A DNA stretch of 64,000 nucleotides from Variovorax sp. TBS-050B (GTDB taxonomy: Bacteria > Pseudomonadota > Gammaproteobacteria > Burkholderiales > Burkholderiaceae_C): contig NZ_JARXYR010000002.1 of assembly GCF_029893635.1 (NCBI RefSeq), positions 2,517,001 through 2,581,000 of the forward strand, read 5' to 3'. A program made the position numbers and the translations under genes. Under the pieces are notes generated by a model. It was given only the letters and a program-made list of their open reading frames with translations. It did no database searches and was not told where the DNA came from. Shown here piece by piece: positions 40,101 through 64,000 of this stretch (position 1 is its first letter; every line of letters starts with the position of its first letter).

Positions 40101-40552
40101 AATCAGTTCTGACGGTCTGCATCGGCAACATCTGCCGAAGCCCGATGGCCGAGGGCCTGCTCGCCGCCGGCCTGCCGCACCTTCGCGTGATGTCCGCGGG
40201 CACCAGCGCGCTGGTCGGCCGGCCGGCCGATCCGATGGCGCAGAAGCTCATGCAGGCGCGCGGGATCGACATCTCGGGGCATGTCGCGCAGCAGGTGAAC
40301 CAGGTGCTGTGCCGGCACGCCGACCTGATCCTCGTGATGGACGCGGACCAGCGGCGCCACCTCGAATCGGCCTACCCCTTCGTGCGCGGCAAGGTGTTCC
40401 GCATCGCCGAGGCCGCCAAGCAGGACGTGCCCGACCCGTACCGGCAGGACGAGGCGGCGTTCGCGCATGCCCTGGCCCTCATCGACGTGGGCGCGCGGAC
40501 CTGGATCGACCGCATTCTGAAAATTACAAAACCTGAGCAGCAACCGACATGA
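40097..40552 (+). CDS. wzb: Low-molecular-weight protein tyrosine phosphatase (Wzb-like)
   Basis: A 151-residue phosphatase. The P-loop is VCIGNICRS (Cys8, Arg14) and the general acid Asp113 is in DPYRQ. It removes phosphate from the tyrosine cluster of the partner kinase Wzc, whose cycling controls chain export. It overlaps wza and wzc by ATGA each. Confidence 0.95.
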   Translation: MKSVLTVCIGNICRSPMAEGLLAAGLPHLRVMSAGTSALVGRPADPMAQKLMQARGIDISGHVAQQVNQVLCRHADLILVMDADQRRHLESAYPFVRGKVFRIAEAAKQDVPDPYRQDEAAFAHALALIDVGARTWIDRILKITKPEQQPT

Positions 40553-42802: not shown

Positions 42803-43138
42803 TCTACCGATGAGTTTCTGGGAAAATTAGCTGGAAATGTGAGATTAATCACTTGATGCACTAAATCGGTGCCATCAATTCAATGCTGATTAAAAAGGTC
42901 TAGAGGCAATTGCGTATTCATTTGGTATTACTCGTCCATATCGCTTTGCCCGCGCACTGATTTCTGCGCCGCGACCTTCAAGGCCGCCGGGCCGAGGCCG
43001 AAGAGCGGCCTTGGTGCCGGACCACCACGTATGACCGAACCCCCAAGGGGCAAGCACCTGCTTGTAAGACGAAAGGTACTCTGCGATGAGAGTTCTTCAT
43101 CTGGAAATTCATTTCGCCCTCGAATGCGAAATTGGGGC
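42803..43138. other. AT-rich gap with a strong hairpin before the priming transferase
   Basis: No convincing gene in 336 nt. The first 150 nt are clearly AT-rich compared with the neighbours. A perfect 9-bp inverted repeat, CAAGGCCGC (42979-42987) and GCGGCCTTG (43005-43013), with a GC-rich loop, and a 6-bp repeat CAAGCA/TGCTTG (43051-43064) follow. It may hold a second promoter or an attenuator between wzc and the transferase. Confidence 0.45.
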
Positions 43139-43858
43139 ATGACCATGAGCAATTTCCATCCGGAAAAATCGATGGCGCCCGCCGGCGAGGACGCATTCGG
43201 CGTGGTGGCGGATGAAATGGCCTGGATGAAAGTCCGCCATCCCGCGGCGCTGCGCGCCGGCAAAAGGGCGGTCGACATTGCGGCCGCGCTTTTCTTTTTC
43301 TGCGCCTTCGGCTGGCTTTTCGCCATCATTGCCATCGGCGTGCTCATCACCTCCGGGGCGCCCGTGCTTTATTCGCAGCCGCGCTTCGGACGCGGCGGCC
43401 GGGTGTTCAAGTTCTACAAATTCCGCTCGATGCTGCCGAATTCGGCCCAGATCCTGGAGGAACATCTCAAGAACGACCCGGTGGCGCGCCAGCAATGGGA
43501 CGAGTACCAGAAGCTCGAGAACGATCCGCGCATCACGCCGTTCGGCAAGTTCATCCGCAAGACCAGCCTCGACGAGCTGCCGCAGTTCTGGAACGTGCTG
43601 GTGGGCGACATGAGCCTGGTCGGGCCGCGGCCCTGCATGCTCGACCAGAAGGGCCTGTACGGCACCGACTGGTCGTACTACTGCGCGGTGCGCCCCGGCA
43701 TCACCGGCCTGTGGCAGGTCAGCGGCCGCAACCAGCTGAGCTACAAGGCGCGCGTCGCGCTCGACGTGGCCTATGTCGAGACGCTTTCCGTGGGCCGGGA
43801 CATCGGCATCTTCCTGCGCACCATCTGGGTGGTGGCCGTGGGCCACGGATCGCGCTGA
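43139..43858 (+). CDS. Priming undecaprenyl-phosphate sugar transferase (WcaJ/EpsE-like)
   Basis: About 239 residues of the polyprenyl phosphosugar-1-P transferase family, which starts the repeat unit on undecaprenyl phosphate. A single N-terminal hydrophobic hairpin (about residues 35-60) is followed by the catalytic part: KFYKFRSMLPNS, ITPFGKFIRKTSLDELPQFWNVL and GDMSLVGPRPCM, then PGITGLWQVSGRN. Only the small core is present, not the five-helix version. The start is uncertain: ATG at 43139 or 43145, with further in-frame ATGs at 43124 and 43031. Confidence 0.93.
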   Translation: MTMSNFHPEKSMAPAGEDAFGVVADEMAWMKVRHPAALRAGKRAVDIAAALFFFCAFGWLFAIIAIGVLITSGAPVLYSQPRFGRGGRVFKFYKFRSMLPNSAQILEEHLKNDPVARQQWDEYQKLENDPRITPFGKFIRKTSLDELPQFWNVLVGDMSLVGPRPCMLDQKGLYGTDWSYYCAVRPGITGLWQVSGRNQLSYKARVALDVAYVETLSVGRDIGIFLRTIWVVAVGHGSR

Positions 43859-43878
43859 ATGCCTGGGCCGATCCCGAG

Positions 43879-45027
43879 ATGAAGAAGATCCTGATCTGCG
43901 CCGTGCCCTTCAGCGACAACCTGGGCGACGGCGTGATTGCCGCGTCGCTCGCGCACATCGCGGCGCTCAAGTACCCGCAGGCGCGCTTCGAACTCCTGGA
44001 CATCGCGGGGCGCCAGGGCTTCGCGGAAGACAACCTGCGCGGCGGCGGCGCCTTCCGGCTGTTCGCGAAATTGCCGTCGCTGCTGAGGTCGCTGATCGTC
44101 TTTCTTTACTGCCTGAAAGGCTATTTCCTTTCCTGGCGAAAGAACTGGAAGGCCGCGGTGGACGACGCCGACCTGGTGGTGATCGGCGGCGGCCAGCTGT
44201 TCTGCGACGTGGCGCTCAACTTTCCGGCGAAGCTGTTTCTGCTGAGCCGGCTCCTGCGCGGCAAGAAGGTGGTGGTCGCCTGCGTGGGCGTGACGGCCAA
44301 GTGGTCGTTCTGGGGGCGCTTCCTGGTGAAGCGCTTCATCGCCAACGCGCGGCCGGTCTTCTACGCCACGCGCGACCCCGAATCGGCCCGCAACCTGCAC
44401 ACCTATTTCAAGGTGCCGAGGACCCACATCGAGGTGGTCCCGGACCCGGCGCTGATCTGCGCCGATGCGTTCTCCGGCGAACTCTCGGCCGAGAAGAACT
44501 GGGACATCGGCATCTGCGTCAGCAGCCTCGATGCGCTGGTGATGAATTCGGAATACGGCCAGCCGAATGCCACGTCCTCGGCGCGCTTCTTCGCGGGGCT
44601 GGCCGACGCATTGCGCGCGAAGGGCTTGCGCGTGCTCTATTTCACCAACGGCGCTTCCGAGGACAACCGGGTGCTGGAGGAAATCGCCTCGGCAGCGGGC
44701 GAGGCCAAGCCGGCCTTCCTGGTGCCGCGCTATCCCGACGAGCTGGTGTCGCTGATCAGCGCGTGCTCATGCATCGTGGCGCACCGGCTGCACGCGAACA
44801 TCGTGGCCTACGGGCTGAACATTCCCTCCATCGGAATGAACTGGGACAAGAAGGTCGCGTCCTTCTTCGAACTGACCGGCCGCACGCACTACCTCTTCGA
44901 CCTGTCGCCGCGCGCCGAGAAGCTCGGCGCCTCGGTGCTCGACCTGTTGAACGACGGCCAGCCCGATCGCCAGCGGCTCGACGCGCTGCGCGGCCAGGTC
45001 GTGGCCGGCGTCCATGCCTTGATCTGA
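43879..45027 (+). CDS. Polysaccharide pyruvyl transferase family protein
   Basis: A 382-residue member of the family that adds ketal-linked pyruvate to exopolysaccharide sugars. Seen are AVPFSDNLGDGVIAASL at the N-terminus, DADLVVIGGGQLF, and the C-terminal CIVAHRLHANIVAYGLNIPSIGM with family histidines. Pyruvate would make the polymer acidic. The gene begins 20 nt after the transferase stop. Confidence 0.88.
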   Translation: MKKILICAVPFSDNLGDGVIAASLAHIAALKYPQARFELLDIAGRQGFAEDNLRGGGAFRLFAKLPSLLRSLIVFLYCLKGYFLSWRKNWKAAVDDADLVVIGGGQLFCDVALNFPAKLFLLSRLLRGKKVVVACVGVTAKWSFWGRFLVKRFIANARPVFYATRDPESARNLHTYFKVPRTHIEVVPDPALICADAFSGELSAEKNWDIGICVSSLDALVMNSEYGQPNATSSARFFAGLADALRAKGLRVLYFTNGASEDNRVLEEIASAAGEAKPAFLVPRYPDELVSLISACSCIVAHRLHANIVAYGLNIPSIGMNWDKKVASFFELTGRTHYLFDLSPRAEKLGASVLDLLNDGQPDRQRLDALRGQVVAGVHALI

Positions 45028-45043
45028 CGAACGAGTGGCGGCC

Positions 45044-46120
45044 ATGAAGATATTGCACATCGCCGAGACCCTGAAGGGCGGCCTGGAGACCTACCTGCGC
45101 ATGGTCTCGGGCTTCCAGCAGAATTCGCCCGCGATCACCCAGGCCAAGTTCGTGCTGCCCGGCCCGGTGGACTGGCTGAGCCCGCAGGACACGCATGTGG
45201 TGCCCACGGCGCGCAGCCCGCTGGTGCTGGCGGGCTATGCCGCCGAGATCCGCCGGATCATCCGCAGCGAGCGGCCGACGGTGCTGCATCTGCACAGTTC
45301 GATCGCGGGCGGCATCGTGCGTGCGATGGCGCTGCTCGGGCAGGTGCCGGCCGAGACCCGCATCGTCTACTGCTCGCACGGCTGGGCCTTCGACCAGATC
45401 GGGCCCTCGTACAAGAAGACGATCTACCGCTGGATCGAATGGCTTCTTTCGCACTGGAGCGACGCCATCATCTGCATCAGCGACCACGAACTGCGGCTGG
45501 CCGAGAAGTTCGGCATCAAGCGCTGCAAGTGCATTCCGAACGGCATCGCGGCCTCGGCCGCGGTACCTGCACCCGCCGAGTTCGAAGCGGTGGCGCGTCC
45601 GCCGTCGGCGCAGCGAACGATCCTGTTCGTCGGCCGGCTCGACCGGCAGAAGGGCATCGATGCGCTGCTCGACGCCTACCTGCGGGTGCGGCCGAACTTC
45701 AAGTTGGTGGTGGTGGGCGAAGCGGTCCGCAACGACCTGCCGATCGCCAAGCCCAACGAGGTGGAGTTCAGGGGCTGGCTCGAGAAGGATGCCCTCGACG
45801 AGGCCTACCGCACGTGCGACGCGATCATCGTGCCGTCGCGCTGGGAGGGCTTCGGCCTGGTCGCGATCGAGGCCATGGCGCGCGGCAAGCCGGTGTTCGC
45901 GTCCGCGGTCGGCGGGCTGGTCGACATCGTCGAGGACAACCGCAGCGGCCGCCTGTTCCCGCTCGAACGGCTGGACGAGATGCTGCACGAGATCGACGGC
46001 ATGTCCTCGGAGCAGCTGATGCGCATGGGCCGGGCAGGGCGTGCGCTCTTCGAGCAGAAATACACCGCCGAGCGGATGAATGCCGCCATCGTCGATCTGT
46101 ACAAGGAGTCGGTGCTTTGA
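45044..46120 (+). CDS. Glycosyltransferase family 4 protein
   Basis: A 358-residue GT-B glycosyltransferase. The N-terminal half has HIAETLKGGLETYLRM and the C-terminal half has ILFVGRLDRQKGIDALLDAY and VPSRWEGFGLVAIEAMARGKPV, the E-x7-E nucleotide-sugar motif. The sugar and acceptor are unknown. An in-frame GTG at 45035 is a second possible start. It is the only non-priming glycosyltransferase seen in the cluster. Confidence 0.92.
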   Translation: MKILHIAETLKGGLETYLRMVSGFQQNSPAITQAKFVLPGPVDWLSPQDTHVVPTARSPLVLAGYAAEIRRIIRSERPTVLHLHSSIAGGIVRAMALLGQVPAETRIVYCSHGWAFDQIGPSYKKTIYRWIEWLLSHWSDAIICISDHELRLAEKFGIKRCKCIPNGIAASAAVPAPAEFEAVARPPSAQRTILFVGRLDRQKGIDALLDAYLRVRPNFKLVVVGEAVRNDLPIAKPNEVEFRGWLEKDALDEAYRTCDAIIVPSRWEGFGLVAIEAMARGKPVFASAVGGLVDIVEDNRSGRLFPLERLDEMLHEIDGMSSEQLMRMGRAGRALFEQKYTAERMNAAIVDLYKESVL

Positions 46121-47394
46121 AGAGGAACCCGTCCCTGCTTTCGCCGCGCGGCCTGCGCCGCGCATGTGCCTGGCTGTGCGCATCGGTGGCGCTGGCGGCG
46201 ATCGCCGTTTCCGCCCAGGCCCGCGGCATCGCCGAGCTGCATTCGGACTACCCGGTGGCGCTCAGCGTGCAGATCGACCCGGCGGACATCTCGGACGACG
46301 ACCTGCGCGAGATCAAGGCTTCGGGCTTCGAGTTCGTGCGCTTCGGCGCGCGGCCGCCGCTCAAGAGCGTGAACCCCGCGTCCATCGACTATGCGAACCT
46401 GATCCGGCGCGTGAAGAACGCGCGCCTCGAAGCGATCGTTACCTTGTTCGGCGGCCGCGAGATCTGGGGCCAGCAGCCCGCGGACCTGGGCGGCGGCCAG
46501 CGCGAGAAGCTGTTCGCCGACTTCGCGCGCCGGTTCATGGAAACGCATGCGGCCGAGGTGGCCGTGTGGGAGCTGTGGAACGAGCCCGACCACAAGACCT
46601 TCCTGAACCCCGCGCTGTTCCCCGCCTTCGAGACCGCGACCGCGGAGTTCTGCCGCAGCATCGCGCAGCTGAAGACGCCGCCGAAGATCGTCATGGGCTT
46701 CGGCTTCGCGAAGCTGCCGTTCAACGCGGGCCAGGTGCCCGCGCCGCTCGAGAGCGCCTTCGTCTCGGCCGCGAAGTCGGACTGCCTGACGGACATCTCG
46801 ATCCATCCCTACCGCGCGGTGCCGGAAACCGCCATCGCCGACTACGCCAAGCTGCGTGCGCAGCTCGACCAGCGGCAGCTGAACAGGGTCGGCATCGTCG
46901 CCTCGGAGTGGGGCTATGCCTCGTACCTGCCGGTGCGCGACCGCAACACGCAGGCCTCGCTGATCTTCCGCGAGTACCTGACCAACGTCGCGGCGGGCAT
47001 CAAGCTGCTGAACCTCTATGCCTGGAAGGACCGGGGCACCTCGGTCGTTGCGCGCGAGGACAACTTCGGCCTCAAGTCGAAGAGCGGCGAGAAGAAGGAG
47101 GCCTTCGCGAGCCTCACCGAATTCCTGCGCATCGTGCGCACTGCCCGGAAGGTCTCCTTCGAGAGCAGCGCCGGCGTGAACAGGCTGGTGCTGAGCCGCG
47201 GCAGCACGCTGCTGCACGTGGTGTGGACGCAGGGCGCCGGGCATGACGTGGTCGTGCCGGCCGAGAAAGGCCGCAAGTGCACGCGCGTGGAGTTCTTCCC
47301 GCAGGTGCGCCATGGCAGCTGCGGCGCGCCCGTGGAGGGCGGTTTCGCGGCCGAGGCCACCGCCTACCCGGTCCTGCTCTCCATCGCGGAATGA
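46117..47394 (+). CDS. Secreted glycoside hydrolase, PslG/GH39-like
   Basis: A 425-residue exported glycosidase. The start is a TTG at 46117 that overlaps the upstream stop (TTGA); AAGGAG ends 8 nt before it and the frame then gives a signal peptide cleaved near SAQA (residue 35). Clan-A fold residues are visible: acid/base E156 in WELWNEPDH and nucleophile candidate E264 in VASEWGYAS. Length and the NEPD motif recall PslG, an exopolysaccharide hydrolase of another species. It probably trims or releases the polymer. Confidence 0.82.
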   Translation: MKRNPSLLSPRGLRRACAWLCASVALAAIAVSAQARGIAELHSDYPVALSVQIDPADISDDDLREIKASGFEFVRFGARPPLKSVNPASIDYANLIRRVKNARLEAIVTLFGGREIWGQQPADLGGGQREKLFADFARRFMETHAAEVAVWELWNEPDHKTFLNPALFPAFETATAEFCRSIAQLKTPPKIVMGFGFAKLPFNAGQVPAPLESAFVSAAKSDCLTDISIHPYRAVPETAIADYAKLRAQLDQRQLNRVGIVASEWGYASYLPVRDRNTQASLIFREYLTNVAAGIKLLNLYAWKDRGTSVVAREDNFGLKSKSGEKKEAFASLTEFLRIVRTARKVSFESSAGVNRLVLSRGSTLLHVVWTQGAGHDVVVPAEKGRKCTRVEFFPQVRHGSCGAPVEGGFAAEATAYPVLLSIAE

Positions 47395-48614
47395 GCTTCG
47401 CGGGCATTCGGAAGCGCCTCGGTCCGGTCTATGCGATTGCCGATCAGTGCATCTACAGCGCGAGCCAGCTGCTGCTGAGCTTCGCGCTTGCGCGGGCGCT
47501 GTCGCCCGCGGACTTCGGCATCGCGTCGGCCTTTCTTGCGATCGTCAGCTTCCAGTACATCCTGCACACGGCCGTGGTGCACGAGCCGCTCCTGATCCGG
47601 CGCTACTACGCCGGCCGCTCGGCTGCGTGGTGGAGCTGGGCGCTGGTGCTCGCGGTCTCGGTGGCGGGCTTCCTGGCGTGGCAGTTCACGAGCTTTCCTG
47701 GGCCGGTGAGTGCCGCCGGCATCGCGCTGATCGTCGGCTACGAGATCTTCTGGATCGCGCGCAGCATGCTGCTCGTGGGGCGGCGCTTTCTGGCGCTCTG
47801 TGTCTCGGGGGTGCTGGTCTGCGTCGGCTACGTGGCGGTGCTGATCGGCCTCCGTCCCGGTACCTGGGCGCAGGCGCTGCTGTGGATCGCCGTCGTGCAG
47901 CTGCCCTTCGCGCTGCTCGTCGCAGCGCACTTCCGGCGCGTGATGGCGCCGCTGCCCGCGCCGGCCGGCACGCCGGCGCTGACGATCGGCGAAGCCGCGA
48001 GCTACGGCTGGAAGGCCAGCCTTTCCCAGCTCATGAGCTGGATCATGACCGGCGGCGCGATCCTGCTGCTGGGCTCTTCGGCGGACGCCGCGCAGGGCGG
48101 GCTGCTGAAGATCTACATCACCTTCCTGCTGCCGATGCAGTACGTGCTGCTGGCGCTGGGCTACTACATCCTGCCGCGGCTCGCGGCGAACTGGCACTCG
48201 GAGTCACGCCGGGAGGCCTTCGGCCTGTTCGTGAAGTTCGTGGTCTTCGGCTTTCTGGTTGCCGAGCTCGGCGGCGTCGTGCTCGGCCTGCTCGGTCCGC
48301 ACCTGGTGGTGCTGGCCTTCGGCGCGAACTATGCGGGCATGGATTTCTCGCCCTTCTTCTACGCGCCCGCGATCTTCGGGCTCACCATGTGCCTGCGCAC
48401 CGGCTTCAGGGCCGCCCGACGCCCCGGCGCGCTGCTGTGGTGCTCCATCTTCGGGGCGCTGGTGTTCGCGGCCTGCATGCGCCTGGCACGGCTTCCGATC
48501 TCCTACATCCAGACCATCCACGCGATGACCATCGGCTTCGCCTGCATGGCGGCCGCGATGATCGTCTGGCTGTTCTTCATCATGCGCGGCGCGCAGGCCT
48601 CGCCGGGCCGCTGA
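47391..48614 (+). CDS. Oligosaccharide flippase (Wzx-like)
   Basis: A 407-residue protein with about 12 hydrophobic helices, starting GPVYAIADQCIYSASQLLLSF and having the polysaccharide-synthase/MATE-like layout. It is shorter than typical 420-500 residue flippases but complete. It likely flips the lipid-linked repeat unit. It overlaps the hydrolase gene by ATGA and ends the operon, 16 nt from the convergent yjbH gene. Confidence 0.85.
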   Translation: MSFAGIRKRLGPVYAIADQCIYSASQLLLSFALARALSPADFGIASAFLAIVSFQYILHTAVVHEPLLIRRYYAGRSAAWWSWALVLAVSVAGFLAWQFTSFPGPVSAAGIALIVGYEIFWIARSMLLVGRRFLALCVSGVLVCVGYVAVLIGLRPGTWAQALLWIAVVQLPFALLVAAHFRRVMAPLPAPAGTPALTIGEAASYGWKASLSQLMSWIMTGGAILLLGSSADAAQGGLLKIYITFLLPMQYVLLALGYYILPRLAANWHSESRREAFGLFVKFVVFGFLVAELGGVVLGLLGPHLVVLAFGANYAGMDFSPFFYAPAIFGLTMCLRTGFRAARRPGALLWCSIFGALVFAACMRLARLPISYIQTIHAMTIGFACMAAAMIVWLFFIMRGAQASPGR

Positions 48615-48630
48615 GCCGGCCCGGCCCCGC

Positions 48631-51600
48631 TCAGCGGCCGAAGTTCAGGATGTTGTCGCCCGTGCGCGGCTCGCCGCTGTCGGGTGCGCTGAACTTGTAG
48701 GCGCTCGGGTCGCGCGCCGAGGTCATCTCGTACAGCGGATGGATCCGCCCGAGCCGCGCGCCGCCGTCGCGCACCAGCGGTGCCCAGGCGAAGTTGGCGG
48801 TGAACTTGCTCGTGCGCGGCAGCAGCGCGTCGAAGGGAATCGCGAGATAGATGCCCTTGTCGAAGCTGCCTTCGCCGAACTGCCGGGCCGAGACGTTGGT
48901 CTTGGTGGCATAGGCGCCGAGCACCACGCCGTTGTCGAAGCGGCGGCTGATGTCGATGGTCACGCCGCGGTCGCCGGCCAGGTACTGGCCTGCGCTGATC
49001 TTGGCGAGCACGCCGTGCCAGCCGGTGTCCCAGTAGAGCGTGGCGTGGCCGGTGTTGACCTTGTAGTCGCGCAGCCCGAAGTCCTGCTCGAAGTCGCGCT
49101 GCCGCACGTGGTTGAAGTCGACGCCGAAGGCGATCTTGCTGCGCCACGGCCGGTAGAGCCATTCGCCGCCCACACCCGCGAACATGGTTTCGAGCGCGCC
49201 GCCGTAGACGCTGTAGTACTGGTTGTCGTTGATCCGGCCCACGTGCGTGAGCTGGAACACCGGCATGGTCAGCCGCTTCGAGGTGACGTACTCGCGCTGG
49301 TAGGTGCGCACGCGCGGCAGGTTGCTGGGCGCGGTGTAGGTGAACTTGTCGAAGTTGTCGACCAGGCGCAGGTTGAGCGCACCGTTGACCCAGGTGCTCG
49401 GCGTGAACCGGTATTCGGCCACCGCCTGCACGCCGATCTGGTAGAGCACGAAGGCGTTCGGGCCGCCGAGGATCTGGCCCAGGCTCGGCGTCAGGCCGAT
49501 GCTGAACTTGGGCGTGTGCCGCTCCCATGCGGGCAGCGCCTGGCCCTCGGCCGCGCCGGCCTTGGTGGCCGCAGGCGCATCGCCGCGCGCGGCCTGCAGC
49601 ACGGGCTTCGGATCGTCGGCGCCGATGGGTGCCGGCGCGTAGTCGCGCTGGCTGGTGGCGCGGCGTTCGGCCGGCGTCTGTGCCTGGTAGTGGGCCGTGA
49701 CCCACTCGCCGCGGTCGACCACCTGCGCATGCATCGGCAGGCCGCGCTCGGAGTAGTGCAGCACGAAGTTCCGGATCGAGCCCGGTGCATCGCGATGCAG
49801 CACCGCGATGATCTGCTCGACGCGCGCACTGCGGTAGACGGTGGCGCTTTCGGTGATCCACACATGCAGCATCGCCCCCTGCGGCGCGATGCGCTGGATG
49901 GTCCAGTCGGTGCGGTTCTCGATCTCCGCCGCGGTGGCGGCCCAGCCCTGGAAGGTGGCGGGCGGATCGGGCGTGAACCGCGGCGCCGGCGGGTCCGCCG
50001 TCTTGGGCATCTGCATGGTCGCGAGGTTGGTCTGCAGCGTGAGGCCCATCATCACCTTGTTGCCGCGCTCGAAGCCGGCCGAGAAGGTGATGCCCGGTGC
50101 ATAGCGGTACTCGAGACCGATGTTGACCGGCGACCGCTGCCGCTGGTTGTTGTTGAGCGGCTCGTTCTGGTAGTCGTTGCCTTCGTACTCGAGCTTGAGC
50201 GTCAGCGGCTCCCAGGGCGTGCGCCACTGCACGCCGCCGAAGAGCGCCGCGGGCCCGCGGAACAGGCGGCCGAAGTTGGCGCCTCCCCACGTCGTCTGGC
50301 TCACGCGCGTCTTGAAGCGGCTGTTCAGCAGGCCGAAGGGGTTGCTGATGTTGCCGGCATTGCCCAGGTAGCCCCAGCCGATGCCGAGGCTGAAATCGAA
50401 GTCGCCGTAGCGCTTGTTCGCCACCAGGTACTCGGAGGAGAACAGGCCCGTGCCGCCGATGTCGCGAAAGCCCAGTGCCACTTCGGGCAGGTAGGCCGAT
50501 TCCTTCCACAGCCTCGCCTTCAGGTCGATGCTCTTGTCCTTGTAGCCCTGGTTGCTGAGGCCGATGCCGTAGATGCGGTTGCTGATCGACGTGTAGCGAA
50601 AACCCGCCTCGAGCCAGTCGAGCGGCTGGAACATCACGTTCAGCCGCGTGTAGGGCGAAACGTGCGAGATCGAGGTCCGCATGTCGCCGGTCTGGCCCAT
50701 GCGGGCGGTGGGCGTCTGCAGCAGGCCGGTCTCGCCCCAGTCGTTGCCGCTGGTCTGCAGCGCGCGGTACTGCGGCGCGGGGTCGGGGCGGACGGAAATC
50801 GCCGTCGAGGCCGGCGGCACGGGGGGGGCGAGGGGCGCGGGCGGTGCCGCGACGGCTGCGGGATCGGGCTGCGCGGCAGGGGCGGGCTCCGGCACCGCGG
50901 GCGGCGCCTGTGCGCTGATTTCTTCCTGCGGAGACGGGCCTTGCGTCGCCAGGAACTTGATCATCCCTTCGGAGATGCCCTCGAGATCCGCCCTGCCGCG
51001 CGGCGCCGACCAGATCCAGGCGCCGGGCGCGGGCTCGTCCGAGGGATGCGCCGTCCACGGCGACACGCCCACGCGCGCGGTGCGGCCGTCGGGCTGGGCC
51101 ACCCAGGCCCAGTCGTGCTTTCCTTCGGGGTCGCAGGCGGCCACGTAGTCCCATGCGGTGCGGCCGGGCTCGTGCGCCACCGCGCAGAGCCGCCCGTCGG
51201 GCTGGAGCACCGAGACCGTCTTCAGCACCGGCGGCGGCGCCACGAGCTGCTGGCCGGCCGTCAGCACCGGATCCTGCTCGGGATGGGCTTCGAGCCAGCG
51301 CGGGTCCACGATGCCCAGCGCCACGCGGCCGGTGATCGGCAGGCCCTGCAGCCAGGCGATCAACTGCTGGCGCTGCGGCTGCTCCTGCCGCGGTGCGCGC
51401 TTGCGGGCGGCCTCGAGCCGCACCAGCAGGGTGTTCTTGAGGAACTGCTGCGCCAGGCGCTCCTGCGGAACGCGCCATGCGAGTCCCGGCGAGGCCGTGG
51501 CGGCGGGCTGGCGCAGCAGCCAGGCGCTCAGGCGCTCGCCCGGGCGGATGTCCGCATCGCCGGCGGGCGCGGGGTTGTCGACCGCGCCGCCGCCTGGAGC

Positions 51601-51702
51601 CTGCGCGCCCGCGGCGCAGCTTGCCGCCAGCGCGCAGGCGGCCATCGCAGCGCGCAGGGGCCGGGGATCCTTGCCGAAGCCACGGGGAAGCAGACGGCTC
51701 AT
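48631..51702 (-). CDS. YjbG-YjbH fusion protein (GfcC + GfcD domains)
   Basis: A 1023-residue exported protein combining two E. coli operon products. After the signal peptide (end near residue 35), residues 50-255 match a GfcC/YjbG domain: FLKNTLLVRLEAAR, GLPITGRVAL, VLTAGQQLVAPP and PGAWIWSAPRG. A proline/alanine linker (about 265-310) leads to the YjbH domain, starting NDWGETGLLQTPTARMGQ and carrying many beta-barrel-like aromatic strands to the C-terminus. YjbH-type proteins are outer-membrane beta-barrel lipopolysaccharide/capsule-secretion related proteins. The ATG at 51702 overlaps the yjbF stop. Confidence 0.85.
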   Translation of the reverse strand: MSRLLPRGFGKDPRPLRAAMAACALAASCAAGAQAPGGGAVDNPAPAGDADIRPGERLSAWLLRQPAATASPGLAWRVPQERLAQQFLKNTLLVRLEAARKRAPRQEQPQRQQLIAWLQGLPITGRVALGIVDPRWLEAHPEQDPVLTAGQQLVAPPPVLKTVSVLQPDGRLCAVAHEPGRTAWDYVAACDPEGKHDWAWVAQPDGRTARVGVSPWTAHPSDEPAPGAWIWSAPRGRADLEGISEGMIKFLATQGPSPQEEISAQAPPAVPEPAPAAQPDPAAVAAPPAPLAPPVPPASTAISVRPDPAPQYRALQTSGNDWGETGLLQTPTARMGQTGDMRTSISHVSPYTRLNVMFQPLDWLEAGFRYTSISNRIYGIGLSNQGYKDKSIDLKARLWKESAYLPEVALGFRDIGGTGLFSSEYLVANKRYGDFDFSLGIGWGYLGNAGNISNPFGLLNSRFKTRVSQTTWGGANFGRLFRGPAALFGGVQWRTPWEPLTLKLEYEGNDYQNEPLNNNQRQRSPVNIGLEYRYAPGITFSAGFERGNKVMMGLTLQTNLATMQMPKTADPPAPRFTPDPPATFQGWAATAAEIENRTDWTIQRIAPQGAMLHVWITESATVYRSARVEQIIAVLHRDAPGSIRNFVLHYSERGLPMHAQVVDRGEWVTAHYQAQTPAERRATSQRDYAPAPIGADDPKPVLQAARGDAPAATKAGAAEGQALPAWERHTPKFSIGLTPSLGQILGGPNAFVLYQIGVQAVAEYRFTPSTWVNGALNLRLVDNFDKFTYTAPSNLPRVRTYQREYVTSKRLTMPVFQLTHVGRINDNQYYSVYGGALETMFAGVGGEWLYRPWRSKIAFGVDFNHVRQRDFEQDFGLRDYKVNTGHATLYWDTGWHGVLAKISAGQYLAGDRGVTIDISRRFDNGVVLGAYATKTNVSARQFGEGSFDKGIYLAIPFDALLPRTSKFTANFAWAPLVRDGGARLGRIHPLYEMTSARDPSAYKFSAPDSGEPRTGDNILNFGR

Positions 51703-52439
51703 GTACCAGCGCTCGCCGCTGCGACGGGTGCTGGAGAAGAAGGCGTCCACTGCTCGAAGCTCATACACAGATCATTGGAAATACATTGCTCGGAATAGAC
51801 GACGCGCGGCGTTCCGCCCGCCTGCGACACGCCGAAGCGCGCGGGCGGCAGCGCGGCGCTCGCCGGGCGCGAGGTGCTGCGCTCCTCGTACCAGCGCAGC
51901 GACGACGCGGCCGTGCCGGCCAGCGCCACCTGGGGCGGCGGGGCGATCGGCGTCTGCACGATCCGGTCGCGGATGCCGAAGCGGTAGCCGGGCATCATGT
52001 CGCGCTCGCGCACGTAGGTGCGGGCGTCGGCCTGGGACCAGCCGGGCGGATCGGACAGGCGCACCTCGCGCCAGTCGGTCGAAAGGCCCGTGGTGCCGAC
52101 CAGACGCCCGTCGAGCAACCGCACCACTTCGCCGCTGCCGCTGTACCAGACCTCGACGGCCCCTTCGGGCCGCTGGTCGATATAGCCGAGCACCATGAAT
52201 ACCGCCTGCCCGCCGGTCACGACGCGCAAATAGCGGTAATTCGGATTGAAGGTGGGTTCGGGTGCGGCGGCTTTGCCGTTGTACAAATGCCGCGCGGTGG
52301 CCAGCATGGCCGAGGAACCGGAAGAGCAGCCGCCAACGCCCAAAAGAAATGCTGCCAGCAGACAGCATTCGACCAGTCGCGCAGCGAAACCGGCGCGCGG
52401 AGCTCTCGGCGATTGCCCTCCCGCGGGGAGGGCCGGCAC
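51699..52439 (-). CDS. yjbF: YjbF-family lipoprotein
   Basis: About 246 residues, with lipobox LLGVGGC near residue 38. The mature part has NPNYRYLRVVTGGQAVFMVLGYID and WYSGSGEVVRLLDGRLVGTTGLST, which is the YjbF/GfcB signature. In E. coli it is encoded in the yjbEFGH polysaccharide operon. The start shown is a GTG 2 nt after the yjbE stop with no good ribosome site, so the N-terminus is uncertain. It is coupled to yjbGH by ATGA. Confidence 0.82.
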   Translation of the reverse strand: MPALPAGGQSPRAPRAGFAARLVECCLLAAFLLGVGGCSSGSSAMLATARHLYNGKAAAPEPTFNPNYRYLRVVTGGQAVFMVLGYIDQRPEGAVEVWYSGSGEVVRLLDGRLVGTTGLSTDWREVRLSDPPGWSQADARTYVRERDMMPGYRFGIRDRIVQTPIAPPPQVALAGTAASSLRWYEERSTSRPASAALPPARFGVSQAGGTPRVVYSEQCISNDLCMSFEQWTPSSPAPVAAASAGT

Positions 52440-58210: not shown

Positions 58211-59806
58211 ATGTCCATCAGGTCGACAAATAGTTGGAGAAGCAGGCGCAGCAATGCGGGTCGCTTTTGCACGGCGATTTTTCCGGCGGTCGTCCTCGCC
58301 GGCTGCGCCGTGCAGCCCGAACCGTTTGCGCAGGACGAGCACCGCGCCCGTTCCGTCGATCTGCTCCAGCGCGCCACGGCCGGCCAGGAGCCGCTCACCG
58401 GGCCGGTCGATCTTTATGAAGCCATGGCACGGGCGATCAAATACAACCTCGACGGCCGGGTCGAATGGATGAACCTCGCGCTGAGCCGCAAGGAGCTCGA
58501 TCTTCAGCGCCATGACATGCTGCCCAAGCTCGTCGCGTCGCTCGACTACACGGGCCGCGACAGCGACGCGGGCGGCAGCAGCCGCTCGCTGCTGAGCGGG
58601 CGCACTTCGCTGGAGCCGTCCACCTCGTCCGACCGCAGCGTGCTGGCGGGCGAGCTCGCCCTGAGCTGGGACGTACTCGACTTCGGGCTGTCGTACGTGC
58701 GCGCGCAGCAGACGGCCGATCAGGTCAACATCGCCGAGGAGCGCAGGCGCAAGGTGTTCAACCGGCTGGTCGAGGACGTGCGCACCGCCTACTGGCGCGC
58801 GGTGAGCGCCGAACGCCTGATGAACCAGATCGAGGAACTGCAGCGCAGCACGCAGGCGGCGCTCGAACTGGCCGAGCAGCAGGAAAAGGTGGGGCTGAGT
58901 TCGCCGCTCGCGCCGCTGGGCTACCAGCGCGAGATGCTCGGCATCCGCCGCGACATCCAGGCCCTGGCCCGCGAGCTCGGCGTGGCCAAGCGGCAGTTGG
59001 GCGCCTTGATGAACCTGCCGCCGCGCACCGCCTACCGCGTGGCCCTTCCACCCACTTCCATCGACTGGGAGCCGCAGCCGCTGGCGGGCGGGAACGCCAA
59101 TGACGGGGAGGCGCTGCTGCGCATGGCGATCGAGAACCGCCCCGAACTGCGCGAGGTGGCCTACCAGCTGCGCAGCAACGACCGGGAGGCCACGGCCGCC
59201 TACCTGCGCATGCTGCCGAGCCTGCGGGTGTCCGTCAGCAGCAACCACAGCGACAACAGCTTTCTCTACAACGGCAACTGGGTGGGGTGGGGCGCGCGGG
59301 CGAGCTGGAATCTGCTGAACGTGTTCCGCCTGCCCGCGGAGCAGCAGAAGATCAGGGCGCAGGGCCAGTCGCTCGACCACCGCCAACTGGCGCTCACGAC
59401 GGCGGTGGCCACGCAGGTGGAGGTGTCCCAGGCGCGCTACGTGCTGCGGCTCGAGGAATTCCGGACGGCCCGGCGCTTTCACGAGGTACAGGTCCGGATC
59501 GAGGCGCAGATCGAAGCCGGGGTCCAGGTCGGGACGCTCGGCCGCCAGGCGCTCATCCGCGAACGGATGAACACGCTGGTCTCGAAGGTGCGCTACGACA
59601 TGGCGCTTGCGGACCTGCAGAACGCCTATGCGAATGTCTACGCCTCGCTGGGCATCGATCCGGTCACGGTGGAGATGCGCACCACAGAGCCCGTGGCCTC
59701 GCTCAGCGCCAAGCTGCGGGCGATGTGGGCGCAGCGGCGCGACCCGGCCGCCATGCAGGAGCCGTCCGCGCCCACCGGCACGGCACCCCAAACCCCGGAG
59801 GGCTGA
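58211..59806 (+). CDS. TolC-family outer-membrane lipoprotein
   Basis: A 531-residue outer-membrane channel. The lipobox is VVLAGC (Cys32). The mature part has two TolC-like helical/strand repeats: ALSWDVLDFGLSYVRAQQTADQ with a Trp-aspartate strand and ARASWNLLNVFRLPAEQQK with the matching second strand, plus long coiled helices. It should open the outer membrane for the adaptors that follow. GAGGTG precedes the ATG. It is the first gene of the cluster. Confidence 0.9.
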   Translation: MSIRSTNSWRSRRSNAGRFCTAIFPAVVLAGCAVQPEPFAQDEHRARSVDLLQRATAGQEPLTGPVDLYEAMARAIKYNLDGRVEWMNLALSRKELDLQRHDMLPKLVASLDYTGRDSDAGGSSRSLLSGRTSLEPSTSSDRSVLAGELALSWDVLDFGLSYVRAQQTADQVNIAEERRRKVFNRLVEDVRTAYWRAVSAERLMNQIEELQRSTQAALELAEQQEKVGLSSPLAPLGYQREMLGIRRDIQALARELGVAKRQLGALMNLPPRTAYRVALPPTSIDWEPQPLAGGNANDGEALLRMAIENRPELREVAYQLRSNDREATAAYLRMLPSLRVSVSSNHSDNSFLYNGNWVGWGARASWNLLNVFRLPAEQQKIRAQGQSLDHRQLALTTAVATQVEVSQARYVLRLEEFRTARRFHEVQVRIEAQIEAGVQVGTLGRQALIRERMNTLVSKVRYDMALADLQNAYANVYASLGIDPVTVEMRTTEPVASLSAKLRAMWAQRRDPAAMQEPSAPTGTAPQTPEG

Positions 59807-59810
59807 TGAA

Positions 59811-60635
59811 ATGTCTTGCCTGAAGCACAAGAAAGCCGCCGCGGGCCTCGCGCTCGCATGGCTGGCATGGCCGGCCTTGGCCCAGACCGACGAGGCGCTC
59901 CACGCCGAGGGCACGCGCGGCGTGCTGCGCGCGCAGCACGAGGCCGTGCTGGCTTCGAGCATTTCCGAGCGCATCGTGCGCATGCCCTTGCGCGAGGGTG
60001 ACCGCTTCCAGAAGGGCCAGACGCTGGTGGCCTTCGACTGCAGCCGCCTGCAGGCCGAGCTGCGCGCGGCGCAGGCCGGCCAGGCGGCCGAGGCGCGCAA
60101 TGCCCAGGTGCAGGCCGAACTGCTCGCGATGCAGGCGGCGGGCCGGGTCGAGGCCGAGATCGCCCGCCACAAGGAGACGGAGCGGACGGCCCAGGTCGAC
60201 ACCATCCGCGCGCGCATGGTCGGCTGCCGCGTGGTGGCGCCGTTCTCCGGCCGGGTGGTCGAGACCTTCGCCCGGCCGCACGAGACGCCGCCGGCCAACG
60301 AGAGGCTGTTGCACATCGTGAGCGACGGCGCGCTCGAACTGCATGTGGTGGTGCCGTCGCGATGGCTCGGCTGGCTGCGCGCGGGGTCGGCCATGCAGTT
60401 CAGGGTCGACGAAACCGGCGACCTGCTGCAGGCGGAGGTGAAACGCATCGCCGCCGCCGTCGACGCCGTGAGCCAGACCGTGAAGGTGGTGGCGTCGGTG
60501 CCGCATGCGCCGGCCGGCGTGCTGCCGGGCATGAGCGGGCGGGTGGTGACCGATCGGCCCCCGGCGCCCGGGCTCGCGGTCGCGGTGGAGCGTTCGCCGG
60601 CCTCCTACCCGTCCCGGGGCCGGCCGTCGCGGTGA
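59811..60635 (+). CDS. HlyD/RND-type periplasmic adaptor
   Basis: A 274-residue exported adaptor with signal peptide MSCLKHKKAAAGLALAWLAW-PALA (end near residue 24). Half-lipoyl motifs are at 40-77 (SERIVRMPLREGDRFQKGQTLVAFD-type) and 137-170 (VVAPFSGRVVETF), with a short helical hairpin between. The beta-barrel follows (LELHVVVPSRWLGWL). The C-terminal membrane-proximal domain is short. A GGAGGG lies 8-13 nt upstream of the start. It begins 4 nt after the TolC stop. Confidence 0.85.
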   Translation: MSCLKHKKAAAGLALAWLAWPALAQTDEALHAEGTRGVLRAQHEAVLASSISERIVRMPLREGDRFQKGQTLVAFDCSRLQAELRAAQAGQAAEARNAQVQAELLAMQAAGRVEAEIARHKETERTAQVDTIRARMVGCRVVAPFSGRVVETFARPHETPPANERLLHIVSDGALELHVVVPSRWLGWLRAGSAMQFRVDETGDLLQAEVKRIAAAVDAVSQTVKVVASVPHAPAGVLPGMSGRVVTDRPPAPGLAVAVERSPASYPSRGRPSR

Positions 60636-62026
60636 GCACGATGCCGCGGCTCGCTGCTCCTGCCCCGCGTCCCGATGCGGACAGCCTGCGCCCGACCAGC
60701 GTGCAGCTGATCCGCATCGAGGGCGAACTGCGCCAGTGCGCGGCGAAGGACGCGCTCTGGCAGCACCTGGCCAACGAGCCGGTGATGCTGCTGCCTTTCG
60801 ACACCGCCCTGGTGTTCGAGGCCGGTGGCGGCCGCAGGCGCATGCGCTGGAAGGCCGTGGCCGTGTCCGCGCTGGCGCAGGTCCATCGCGATGCGCCGAT
60901 GACGCGCTGGTACGAGGACATGGTCGCGAAGGCATGGTCGAGCACCCAGGGCGCGACCGGCGTCTACCTGTTCGAACTGTCCGCGCACGCCGATCTCTCC
61001 GATCCCTGCGCAGACGATGCGGCGCTGGCGCATCTGATGTGGGTGCCGCTGGTCGACCTGGGGCAGCCCGTGCGTGCCGGCTGGCTGCTGGCGCGCCGCA
61101 CGCCCTGGGAGCCGGCGCACCAGACGCTCGCGGCCCGGCTGGCGGCTGCCTACGCCCACGGGTTGAGTGCCATCGAAGGGCGCGCGAAACCGCCCGCGCC
61201 GTGGCGCCGGCACCGGATCGCGCTGGCGCTCGCGGGGGCCGCGGCCGTGCTCGCGCTGGTCTTCGTGCAGGTGCCGCTGACCACGCTCGCGCCGGTCGAG
61301 GTCATGCCCGAGGCGCCTTTCGTCGTGGCGGCCCCGGTGCCGGGCGTGGTCGAGCGGATCCTGGTGGCGCCGGGCACGCGGGTGAGCGAGGGCTCGCCGC
61401 TGGTGCAGCTGGTCGACACCACGCTGCGCAGCGATTTCGAGGTGGCCGGCCGCAAGCTCGGCGTGGCACGCGCGCGCAAGCTGCGCCTGCAGCAGGCGGC
61501 CGTGGTCGACCCGACCGCCAAGCGGGAGTTGGCGATCGCGCGCAGCGAGGAACTCGTGGCGCGGGCCGAGCGCGACTACGCCCGCGCCATGCTCGAGAAG
61601 GCCGTCATCCGCGCGCCGCGCGAAGGCGTCGTGCTCTATGGCGACCCGCGCGACTGGATGGGGCGGCCGGTGGCCGTGGGCGAGGCGATCATGCGCGTGG
61701 CCGATCCCGGGCGGGTGGAGTACCGCATCAAGGTCGCCGTCGCCGATGCGGTCAACCTGCGCGAGAACGCCAGCGTCAAGGTGTTCCTCGACGCGGCGCC
61801 GCTGGCTCCTTTCGACGCGCGCGTGGTGCGCGCGGCCTACCGCGCCGAGGCCGACGCGGCGGGCGTTTCGAGCTACGTCGTCACCGCCCGGCCCGTGGAA
61901 CCCTATGTCGCGCCCGAGCGACTGGGCCTGCGCGGCACGGCGCGCCTGTATGGCGAACCCGTGTCGCTGCTCTATTACCTGCTGCGCCGGCCGATCACCG
62001 CCGCGCGCCAGTGGACGGGGCTTTGA
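60632..62026 (+). CDS. HlyD-family adaptor with cytoplasmic GAF-like N-domain
   Basis: About 464 residues from GTG 60632 (overlapping the upstream stop as GTGA); ATG 60641 is an alternative start three codons on. The first 185 residues look soluble and GAF-like, not an adaptor. A single helix (about 193-212) then leads to lipoyl motifs VVAAPVPGVVERILVAPGTRVSEG and the matching VIRAPREGVVLYG, and a barrel. This adaptor with a sensing-like cytoplasmic part is uncommon. Confidence 0.82.
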   Translation: MSTMPRLAAPAPRPDADSLRPTSVQLIRIEGELRQCAAKDALWQHLANEPVMLLPFDTALVFEAGGGRRRMRWKAVAVSALAQVHRDAPMTRWYEDMVAKAWSSTQGATGVYLFELSAHADLSDPCADDAALAHLMWVPLVDLGQPVRAGWLLARRTPWEPAHQTLAARLAAAYAHGLSAIEGRAKPPAPWRRHRIALALAGAAAVLALVFVQVPLTTLAPVEVMPEAPFVVAAPVPGVVERILVAPGTRVSEGSPLVQLVDTTLRSDFEVAGRKLGVARARKLRLQQAAVVDPTAKRELAIARSEELVARAERDYARAMLEKAVIRAPREGVVLYGDPRDWMGRPVAVGEAIMRVADPGRVEYRIKVAVADAVNLRENASVKVFLDAAPLAPFDARVVRAAYRAEADAAGVSSYVVTARPVEPYVAPERLGLRGTARLYGEPVSLLYYLLRRPITAARQWTGL

Positions 62027-62031
62027 CCGCC

Positions 62032-64000
62032 ATGCCGCACGCCATCAATCGAAGCCAGCGGCTGCCCCCGCTGCGCCAGGATCTCCGGCTCATCGAAGGC
62101 GGTGCGCACGGGTCCGCATCCGACGGCACCGCGCAGTGGCGCATTCACGATCCGCTCGCGCAGCGCTTCTACAGCGTCGGTTCCGACGTGGTGGACATGC
62201 TGGCGCACTGGGGCGAAGGCAGCGCCGGCGCGCTGCGCGCGGCCATGCTGCGCGAGCGCGGCCGCGCCGCGAGCGACGAGAAGATCGCCGCGCTCTGCGA
62301 GTTCCTGCAGCGCAACGAGCTGCTGCGTCCCGTGCCGCAGCAGACCTTCGCGCGCGTGCGCCGGCAGGTCGGGGCGGCCAGGCGTTCGCCAGGCAGCCGC
62401 GTGCTGCACGGCTATCTGTTCTTCAAGCTGCCGCTCGCGCGGCCCGATGCCTTTCTGCGCCGCACGCTGGCCTGGGTGCAGGTGTTCTTCGCGCCGGCGC
62501 TCTGGTGGACGGCCGCGTTGCTGGGGCTCGTCGGCCTCTATCTGGTGTCGCGGCAATGGGAGCGCTTCGTCGCCACCTTCCCCGACATGCTGTCGGCCGG
62601 CGGCATCGCCACCTTCGGCTTGAGCCTGGTGCTGGTCAAGGCGCTGCACGAGCTCGGCCACGGCTACGCGGCCGTGCACATGGGCGCGCGCGTGACCACC
62701 ATGGGCATGGCCTTCGTCGTGATGGCGCCCATTCTCTACACCGACACCACCGATGCCTGGCGCCTGCCGCACCGGCGCCAGCGCGTGCTGATCGACGCCG
62801 CGGGCATGCTGGTGGAGCTGCTGGTGGCCGTGGCCGCGACGCTGGCCTGGGTGTTCCTGCCCGACGGGCCGATGCGCCATGCGGCCTTCGCGCTGGCCAC
62901 CACCGGCTGGGTGCTCAGCCTGGCGGTGAACCTCAATCCGTTGATGCGCTTCGACGGCTACTACCTGTTCAGCGACCTGCTGGGGCAGCCCAATCTGCAG
63001 GAGCGCGCCTTCGCGATGGGGCGCTGGTGGCTGCGCGAGCTGCTGTTCGGCTTCGGCGACGCCGCACCCGAGCCCGCGCGCGGGCGCCGCCGGTTGCTGC
63101 TGGTCGGCTTCGCCTATGCCACCTGGCTCTACCGCTTCTTCCTGTTCCTCGGCATCGCGCTGCTGGTCTATCACTACTTCTTCAAGATGCTCGGTATCTT
63201 CCTGTTCGCGGTGGAGTTGGGCTGGTTCATCGCGCGGCCCGTCTGGCGCGAACTCCGGATCTGGGCCGTCCGGCGGCGCGAGGCGGGGCCGCGCGGGCGC
63301 ATCACCGCGCTGCTGCTGCTGGGCCTGCTGGTGGCGCTGCTGCTGCCCTTTCCCTACACGGTGCGCATTCCCGCCATGCTGACCGCGGCGCGAAAGGCGG
63401 CGGTCTTCTCGCCACGGGCGGGGCGCATCGAGGCCGTGCACGTGCGGCCGCGCGAGCAGGTCCGCGCGGGGCAGGTTTTGATCGACATGGCCGCACCGGA
63501 GATCGAGCAGCGGCTGCACAGCGCGCGCGCGAACCTGGCGCTGCTGCGGGAGCGCCTGGCGCGGCGGGGTGTGGACGAAAGCGACCTGTCGGCCAGCATG
63601 GTGCTCGCGCACGAACTCGGGCTCGAGCACGAGCGCATCGAAGGCCTGGAACGCGAGCGCGACCGCCTGCAGGTGCGCGCGCCAATGGACGGCGTCATCG
63701 CCGAGCTTGCGGAGGAACTCGGACCCGGGCACTGGATCGGCGAGGGCACGCAACTCGCGCTGATCGCCGCGCCGGGCGGCCTCTCGGCGCGCGGCTACGT
63801 CGCCGCCCACGACCTGCGGCGCATCGCCGAGGGCGACGAAGGCCGCTTCGTCGACGAGCTCCGCATGCAGCCCGCCCGCGCGCTGCGCCTCGAGCGCGTG
63901 GCCACGGCCGCCAGCGAGCACATGGACCACTGGCTGCTGGCGTCGACCCACGGCGGGCCGGTGGCCGCGCGCGCGCAGGGCGGCAGGACCGTGCCCGAGC
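62032..64000 (+). CDS. PqqD/RRE-like - M50 metallopeptidase - HlyD fusion protein (3' end outside window)
   Basis: The frame is open to the window end (656 codons seen). Residues ~15-100 (WRIHDPLAQRFYSVGSDVVD) recall PqqD-like peptide-recognition domains. Membrane helices follow around residues 150-345. The zinc site of site-2 proteases is HELGH (206-210) with the third ligand D308 in NPLMRFDGYY. From about 455 a HlyD-like part (SPRAGRIEAVHVRPREQVRAGQ) with coiled region follows. KEGG-type labels for this family are 'putative peptide zinc metalloprotease'. It forms one unit with the preceding three genes. Confidence 0.86.
   Translation, partial: MPHAINRSQRLPPLRQDLRLIEGGAHGSASDGTAQWRIHDPLAQRFYSVGSDVVDMLAHWGEGSAGALRAAMLRERGRAASDEKIAALCEFLQRNELLRPVPQQTFARVRRQVGAARRSPGSRVLHGYLFFKLPLARPDAFLRRTLAWVQVFFAPALWWTAALLGLVGLYLVSRQWERFVATFPDMLSAGGIATFGLSLVLVKALHELGHGYAAVHMGARVTTMGMAFVVMAPILYTDTTDAWRLPHRRQRVLIDAAGMLVELLVAVAATLAWVFLPDGPMRHAAFALATTGWVLSLAVNLNPLMRFDGYYLFSDLLGQPNLQERAFAMGRWWLRELLFGFGDAAPEPARGRRRLLLVGFAYATWLYRFFLFLGIALLVYHYFFKMLGIFLFAVELGWFIARPVWRELRIWAVRRREAGPRGRITALLLLGLLVALLLPFPYTVRIPAMLTAARKAAVFSPRAGRIEAVHVRPREQVRAGQVLIDMAAPEIEQRLHSARANLALLRERLARRGVDESDLSASMVLAHELGLEHERIEGLERERDRLQVRAPMDGVIAELAEELGPGHWIGEGTQLALIAAPGGLSARGYVAAHDLRRIAEGDEGRFVDELRMQPARALRLERVATAASEHMDHWLLASTHGGPVAARAQGGRTVPE

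Follow-up and report, generated by a model that had tools for sequence, protein, structure and literature searches.

The four-gene block and the giant gene behind it

The window analysed here is a stretch of 64,000 nucleotides from Variovorax sp. TBS-050B, and the subject of this work is the block of four plus-strand genes at its end, which may encode an envelope export module, together with the gene of a giant protein that follows just beyond the window. The first gene of the block (58211..59806) encodes a TolC/OEP-family outer-membrane channel of 531 amino acids (aa) by translation; it matched Pfam OEP in two stretches (113.4 bits) and has a lipoprotein-like start with a LAGC lipobox, as read by eye. 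The second gene (59811..60635) codes for a periplasmic adaptor of the HlyD/RND (resistance-nodulation-division) type, 274 aa long (TIGR01730 104.2 bits, cut-off 94.9; HlyD_3 64.4 bits), and the third (60632..62026) for a second adaptor of 464 aa, in which an N-terminal domain of about 185 aa is followed by a HlyD domain (HlyD_3 54.4 bits). The fourth gene (62032..64164) encodes a 710-aa fusion of an RRE-like domain (RiPP recognition element; RiPP, ribosomally synthesized and post-translationally modified peptide), an M50 intramembrane metalloprotease and a HlyD domain, assigned by Pfam/NCBIfam, alignment, AlphaFold and hhalign and called the M50-HlyD protein below. This gene extends 164 nt beyond the window end (64000), to a stop at 64164. 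With the GTG at 60632 taken as the start of gene 3, the intergenic gaps were 4, -4 and 5 nt; with the alternative ATG at 60641 the second gap becomes +5. The four open reading frames (ORFs) and their tight spacing were thus confirmed as the first-pass annotation had described them, and its TolC, HlyD (genes 2, 3 and 4) and M50 (gene 4) calls were borne out by Pfam/NCBIfam. The "GAF-like" label that it had given to gene 3 found no support, no GAF match being obtained in Pfam or among PDB sequences; the N-terminal domain of about 185 aa had no Pfam match of any kind and no significant PDB-sequence match.

When the contig was extended past 64000, the gene of a very large repeat protein, which the first-pass annotation had named only among the things to look for there, was found directly downstream. 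By ORF reading it lies at 64229-74173, 64 nt past gene 4, encodes 3,314 aa and has AGGAGG ahead of its ATG. Since 58211-74173 is filled by these five genes, there is no room for an ATP-binding cassette (ABC) or RND gene in this interval, and the ORF list contained none; the absence of a visible pump, remarked earlier for the window, therefore also holds directly downstream of gene 4.

The N-terminus of the giant matched LEPR-XLL (NF012209, LEPR-8K; residues 27-41, 18.8 bits, cut-off 17), a family whose name covers the motif only, and the protein carries DUF4347 (155 bits); this N-terminal part with DUF4347 corresponds to window coordinates 64229-64993 (L005:12230-12994), beyond the window. Within the 2,590 aa scanned there were 18 Big_9 stretches, and the repeats are Ig/cadherin-like. 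The RTX-like pattern GGxGxD matched once in the giant; it had no match in 20 of 21 DUF4347 proteins scanned and one in the remaining protein, several of these sequences being truncated. As far as structural modelling indicates, the fold of DUF4347 is probably caspase-like (clan CD), and its nearest solved relative is the type VI secretion protein Tce1 (9qpe). Cys193 was conserved in 26 of 26 aligned sequences and His146 in 24 of 26, a pair that may form the dyad of the caspase-like (clan CD) kind. A list of 53 relatives of the giant's N-terminus was obtained and not used. Since a giant protein with LEPR-XLL, DUF4347 and Ig/cadherin-like repeats adjoins the block, the cargo is most likely this protein and not a small peptide.

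The block TolC / HlyD / HlyD / RRE-M50-HlyD, referred to as the module, was found across Proteobacteria and beyond. Loci were sampled with one genome per species, and the best 80 of 587 confirmed candidates were taken. A gene 3 homologue stood beside the M50-HlyD gene in 78 of these 80 loci and in all 71 that had at least 2 kb of upstream DNA, so that the neighbourhood is conserved in related genomes; where enough upstream DNA was available, a gene 2 homologue (HlyD1) was present in 61 of 65 loci and TolC in 43 of 56. The four-gene arrangement is beyond chance, since it recurs in 80 loci. A giant with the LEPR motif was seen in 31 of the 80 loci (20 of the 37 with full flanks), and another frame of at least 1000 aa in 33 of the 37 full-flank loci, some of these being shadow or unrelated frames. 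Clustering of 916 neighbour ORFs of at least 90 aa, the module included, gave no further family or pump conserved with the module: ABC ATPase ORFs occurred scattered in 10 loci, pieces of giants formed a cluster in 7 loci, and a neighbour cluster from 13 loci looks like antisense shadow frames.

In two loci (L095 of genome G156 and L104 of G143) the sequence in view showed the M50-HlyD gene and no recognisable adaptor, TolC channel or giant. In the complete genome of Pectobacterium aroidearum L6 the module is present twice, together with giants (L040, L079). One passage of a comparative study calls an M50 peptidase restricted to Pectobacterium aroidearum (PMC6963963), whereas P. versatile (L050) and P. 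carotovorum (L074) also carry M50-HlyD. The idea that the module serves the Pectobacterium adhesin ECA3266/MRP was dropped, since the passages found describe this adhesin as a type I secretion substrate and align it with LapA in one legend. In the genus of the window genome, one genome (G644) has M50-HlyD and a DUF4347 frame of 9250 aa, and in another (G585) neither passed the thresholds applied; the presence of the system is thus patchy within the genus.

The M50-HlyD protein and its RRE-like domain

The M50-HlyD protein had 6,319 relatives at E <= 0.001. It matched Pfam M50 at 27.5 bits (cut-off 27.2), and alignment located the HELGH zinc motif at residues 206-210 (62647..62661, plus strand) and its partner residue D308 at 62953-62955 (plus strand). 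HELGH and D308 were invariant across 34 aligned proteins, the one studied here included, and H206, E207, H210 and D308 were invariant across 86. The Pfam score, the HExxH motif and the downstream Asp expected of peptidase family M50 are thus all present.

The AlphaFold model of the protein had a mean predicted local distance difference test score (pLDDT) of 90.6. Its N-terminus, approximately residues 11-100 (62062..62331, plus strand), was modelled as three strands followed by three helices, which is the element order of PqqD/RRE. The Foldseek and VIA-align lists were taken up by the HlyD part of the model, so residues 1-100 were compared by hhalign instead. Against 14 PqqD-family sequences the domain gave 94.9%, against 7 divergent PqqD sequences 77.7% and against 7 classical PqqD sequences 0.8%, while four other domains used as controls gave at most 0.13%. 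Pfam PqqD (PF05402, cut-off 23.4) had no match in the protein itself or in 33 near relatives. Above this cut-off it was found in frames of the distant relatives G042, G006 and G003 (21.9 for G006 when retested), and in 1 of 10 proteins of the more distant subclass B described below, three more being listed below the cut-off. The RRE-like N-terminus proposed by the first-pass annotation thus agrees with the model topology and with two of three PqqD sets, and disagrees with Pfam PqqD and with the classical set, so the support for its RRE identity is mixed but mostly favourable. Peptide binding by this domain is putative; hydropathy predicts it on the cytosolic side of the membrane.

The same annotation had suggested that the module matures and exports a small RiPP-like peptide, and the RRE-like domain would fit such a role. 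Gene 4 also resembles known leader proteases: its M50 core (residues 38-398) was aligned with the daptide HExxH protease (NF041824) at 165.7 bits, below the cut-off of 300, and residues 195-313 with the YydH/LiaK epipeptide protease (NF058609) at 25.8 bits, below the cut-off of 225. In addition, no giant is visible near some of the M50-HlyD genes. In contrast to these proteases, however, gene 4 is fused to HlyD, and it has a giant gene as neighbour instead of a small precursor. Neighbour families other than the module and the giants were not conserved, and no maturase or precursor family was found among the neighbour ORFs of at least 90 aa, a size below which precursors would escape. Export of a small peptide is therefore very improbable, and it was set aside in favour of the giant as cargo.

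Association of the LEPR tag with the module

In the loci set, each of the 29 giants with DUF4347, the one adjoining the window included, has the motif LExRxx(L/F)D(A/G) ahead of that domain. A 24-column profile made from those giants also finds three giants without DUF4347, and none of 9,923 shuffled ORFs passed 8 bits with it; since the profile was built from giants that it then found, only the three extra matches and the shuffles serve as a check.

DUF4347 and the M50-HlyD protein occurred together in genomes. Among 281 genomes of the class, DUF4347 was found in 39, M50-HlyD in 45 and both in 31 (p 4e-23); among 396 genomes of the phylum, the numbers were 82, 79 and 63 (p 1e-40). Some genomes belong to both sets and, since the genomes are related, these p-values overstate independence. 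In the set of 281, a genome was counted as carrying M50-HlyD when a match extended over the M50 part and scored roughly 100 bits or higher, a cut-off chosen by us; some match to the M50-HlyD query was present in 224 of the 281, mostly in HlyD only. The counts leave out G053 (below the Pfam cut-off, which would be the 40th DUF4347 genome), a weak second match in G166 and second partial DUF4347 matches within one ORF. The 281 genomes contained 44 DUF4347 proteins, 34 with the motif, 9 without it and one with its start cut off (G155, kept outside the 2x2 table). The motif-bearing proteins were in M50-HlyD genomes in 32 of 34 cases, while three of the motif-less ones were in such genomes and six in genomes without M50-HlyD (Fisher p 3e-4).

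In order to be exported, the giant could also cross the inner membrane by the general secretory (Sec) route, in which case the module would only mature, anchor or release it at the outer membrane. A Sec-like hydrophobic stretch was defined as a 15-residue mean of at least 1.5 before DUF4347; the scan was run on stop-to-stop frames, so some windows may precede the true start. Such a stretch was present in 5 of 9 motif-less DUF4347 proteins, from which it appears that DUF4347 can probably travel by Sec, and three of the 34 motif-bearing proteins (L113, L134, L145) also reached 1.5. The remaining 31 motif-bearing proteins stayed below this value (0.92 for the giant studied here), and the RRE-like domain is predicted, from hydropathy, to face the cytosol. 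We regard the Sec route as distinctly unlikely for the tagged giants. Since Sec-like stretches are found mainly in motif-less DUF4347 proteins, the LEPR tag seems, on the sequences compared, mostly to substitute for a Sec signal.

Two classes of M50-HlyD proteins can be told apart, a near one (A) and a far one (B), and in class B the homologue of gene 3 is usually longer. At motif position 8 (after LEPRxxx) all 10 class A genomes have D and all 19 class B genomes have S or A, so that all 29 follow the subclass; this covariation was noticed post hoc. G045 was assigned to class A on the summed score of its two pieces (423 bits), and G086 was excluded from the count because it has D at position 8 together with an M50 score of 313 bits as in class B. 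The second adaptor and TolC of G086 score like those of class A. M50-HlyD genomes without DUF4347 numbered 27 in the two samples, and 16 of these were fetched. In 7 of the 16 a motif-bearing ORF adjoins the module: it has D in the class A genomes G179, G431, G449 and G504, S in the class B genomes G043 and G152, and D in G086.

These results also bear on the idea that the genes are an orphan adaptor set for drug or metabolite efflux and that their link with the giant is coincidental. The score of HlyD1 above the RND-adaptor cut-off is what such a set would be expected to give; the co-occurrence, the neighbourhood, the covariation of tag and subclass and the lack of any further conserved family in the loci all speak against it, and we consider it extremely improbable.

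Elsewhere in the window, the translations of positions 38934-51768 suggest, on inspection by eye, a cluster of the exopolysaccharide type, whose last ORF (1045 aa, minus strand) lies at 48631-51768.

A possible route of export and its energy

Starting from the gene content, the conservation, the association of tag and module, the covariation of tag and subclass, the intact catalytic residues and the predicted folds computed here, we infer binding, cleavage and translocation, and with them an energy source, if any, other than a dedicated ATPase. The chances seem to us about even that the module is a dedicated envelope export system for giant adhesin-like proteins, similar to type I secretion and free of an ABC protein. 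The giant would be synthesised in the cytosol, carrying at its N-terminus a leader (a basic part, then ALEPRxxFDAAxxAT) in place of a Sec signal, and this LEPR leader would be bound by the RRE-like domain that the M50-HlyD protein exposes to the cytosol. Cleavage of the leader, or of a neighbouring segment, would fall to the M50 site located at or within the membrane, and the conduit to the outside would consist of TolC, both separate adaptors and the HlyD domain that the M50-HlyD protein itself contributes. The DUF4347 beside the leader, probably caspase-like, may process the giant further. In peptidase-containing ABC exporters of the C39 type, one inner-membrane protein binds and cuts the leader and feeds TolC; the role proposed for the M50-HlyD protein is alike, with M50 instead of C39 and with no ATPase in the module.

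A number of observations weigh against this proposal, besides the relatedness of the genomes, the three tagged proteins with Sec-like stretches and the PqqD comparisons that failed. The genome of G193 has a motif-bearing giant (L092) and no M50-HlyD was found in it; the contig breaks off within the giant, so the module may be missing from the assembly. G094 has a motif-bearing DUF4347 protein and M50-HlyD only as fragments. Motif-less DUF4347 proteins occur despite the module in G254 (two, L136 and L144) and in G060 (L119, with a Sec-like hydrophobic stretch). Of the 16 M50-HlyD genomes lacking DUF4347 that were fetched, 9 showed no motif; the retrieved sequence of G082, G190 and G300 stops within giant frames, while G047, G143, G156, G186, G339 and G418 had no motif-bearing giant in view, and G156 and G143 had no partner genes in view either. 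The D/S covariation could have arisen by co-inheritance. An ABC nucleotide-binding domain (NBD) was found, with two NBD queries, within 3 kb of the module in 5 of 80 loci, in three of them on the module strand. Finally, no energy source was identified, and the movement of a chain of more than 3,000 aa without one is hard to explain.

Alternatively, the system could be type I secretion in disguise, with an ABC exporter encoded elsewhere docking on the adaptors and the M50-HlyD protein acting as an accessory protease. The module shares with type I secretion (HlyB/HlyD/TolC, and LapBCE with LapA-type adhesins) the TolC channel and the HlyD adaptors, both of type I secretion or efflux types, and a giant repeat adhesin as neighbour. 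The HlyD-family adaptor and the TolC channel of such a system are present; an ABC exporter encoded alongside is not, and the module differs further in having an intramembrane metalloprotease fused to HlyD. Exporters were checked in ten module-bearing genomes chosen by us, the best 33-60 candidates per genome being scored. LssB-, PrtD- and HlyB-type exporters exceeded the NCBI cut-offs in one genome each (G252, G254 and G082), and all ten also had ABC exporters with scores under the curated cut-offs. In 7 of the 10, however, the window's own genome included, no exporter of the LssB, PrtD or HlyB type passed the cut-off among these candidates. The small number of loci with an NBD near the module, the lack of an extra conserved gene, the N-terminal position of the LEPR tag on the cargo and the near absence of RTX-like GGxGxD matches from the DUF4347 proteins scanned also argue against a hidden type I system, which we consider unlikely.

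The full proposal goes further than a dedicated export module: the fusion of RRE, intramembrane protease and HlyD would replace the ABC transporter, read the N-terminal LEPR tag and, with no dedicated ATPase, send adhesins thousands of residues long out through TolC, and would thus constitute a new secretion system of Gram-negative bacteria. We put this forward tentatively, as possible rather than probable. A full-text literature search returned no paper on the module, an absence that is weak evidence since most subscription journals were outside its scope; in the passages found, from two papers, LEPR-XLL is a passing label, with no link to the M50-HlyD module mentioned there.

By this proposal the LEPR-XLL motif gets a function, that of an export tag, and a likely reader, and a series of uncharacterised proteins annotated as "HlyD", "site-2 protease" or giant protein is gathered into one testable system. 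The probably caspase-like DUF4347 beside the tag adds a possible step of self-processing. If the module does work without an ATPase, it would challenge the view that tripartite export requires an energised inner-membrane transporter.

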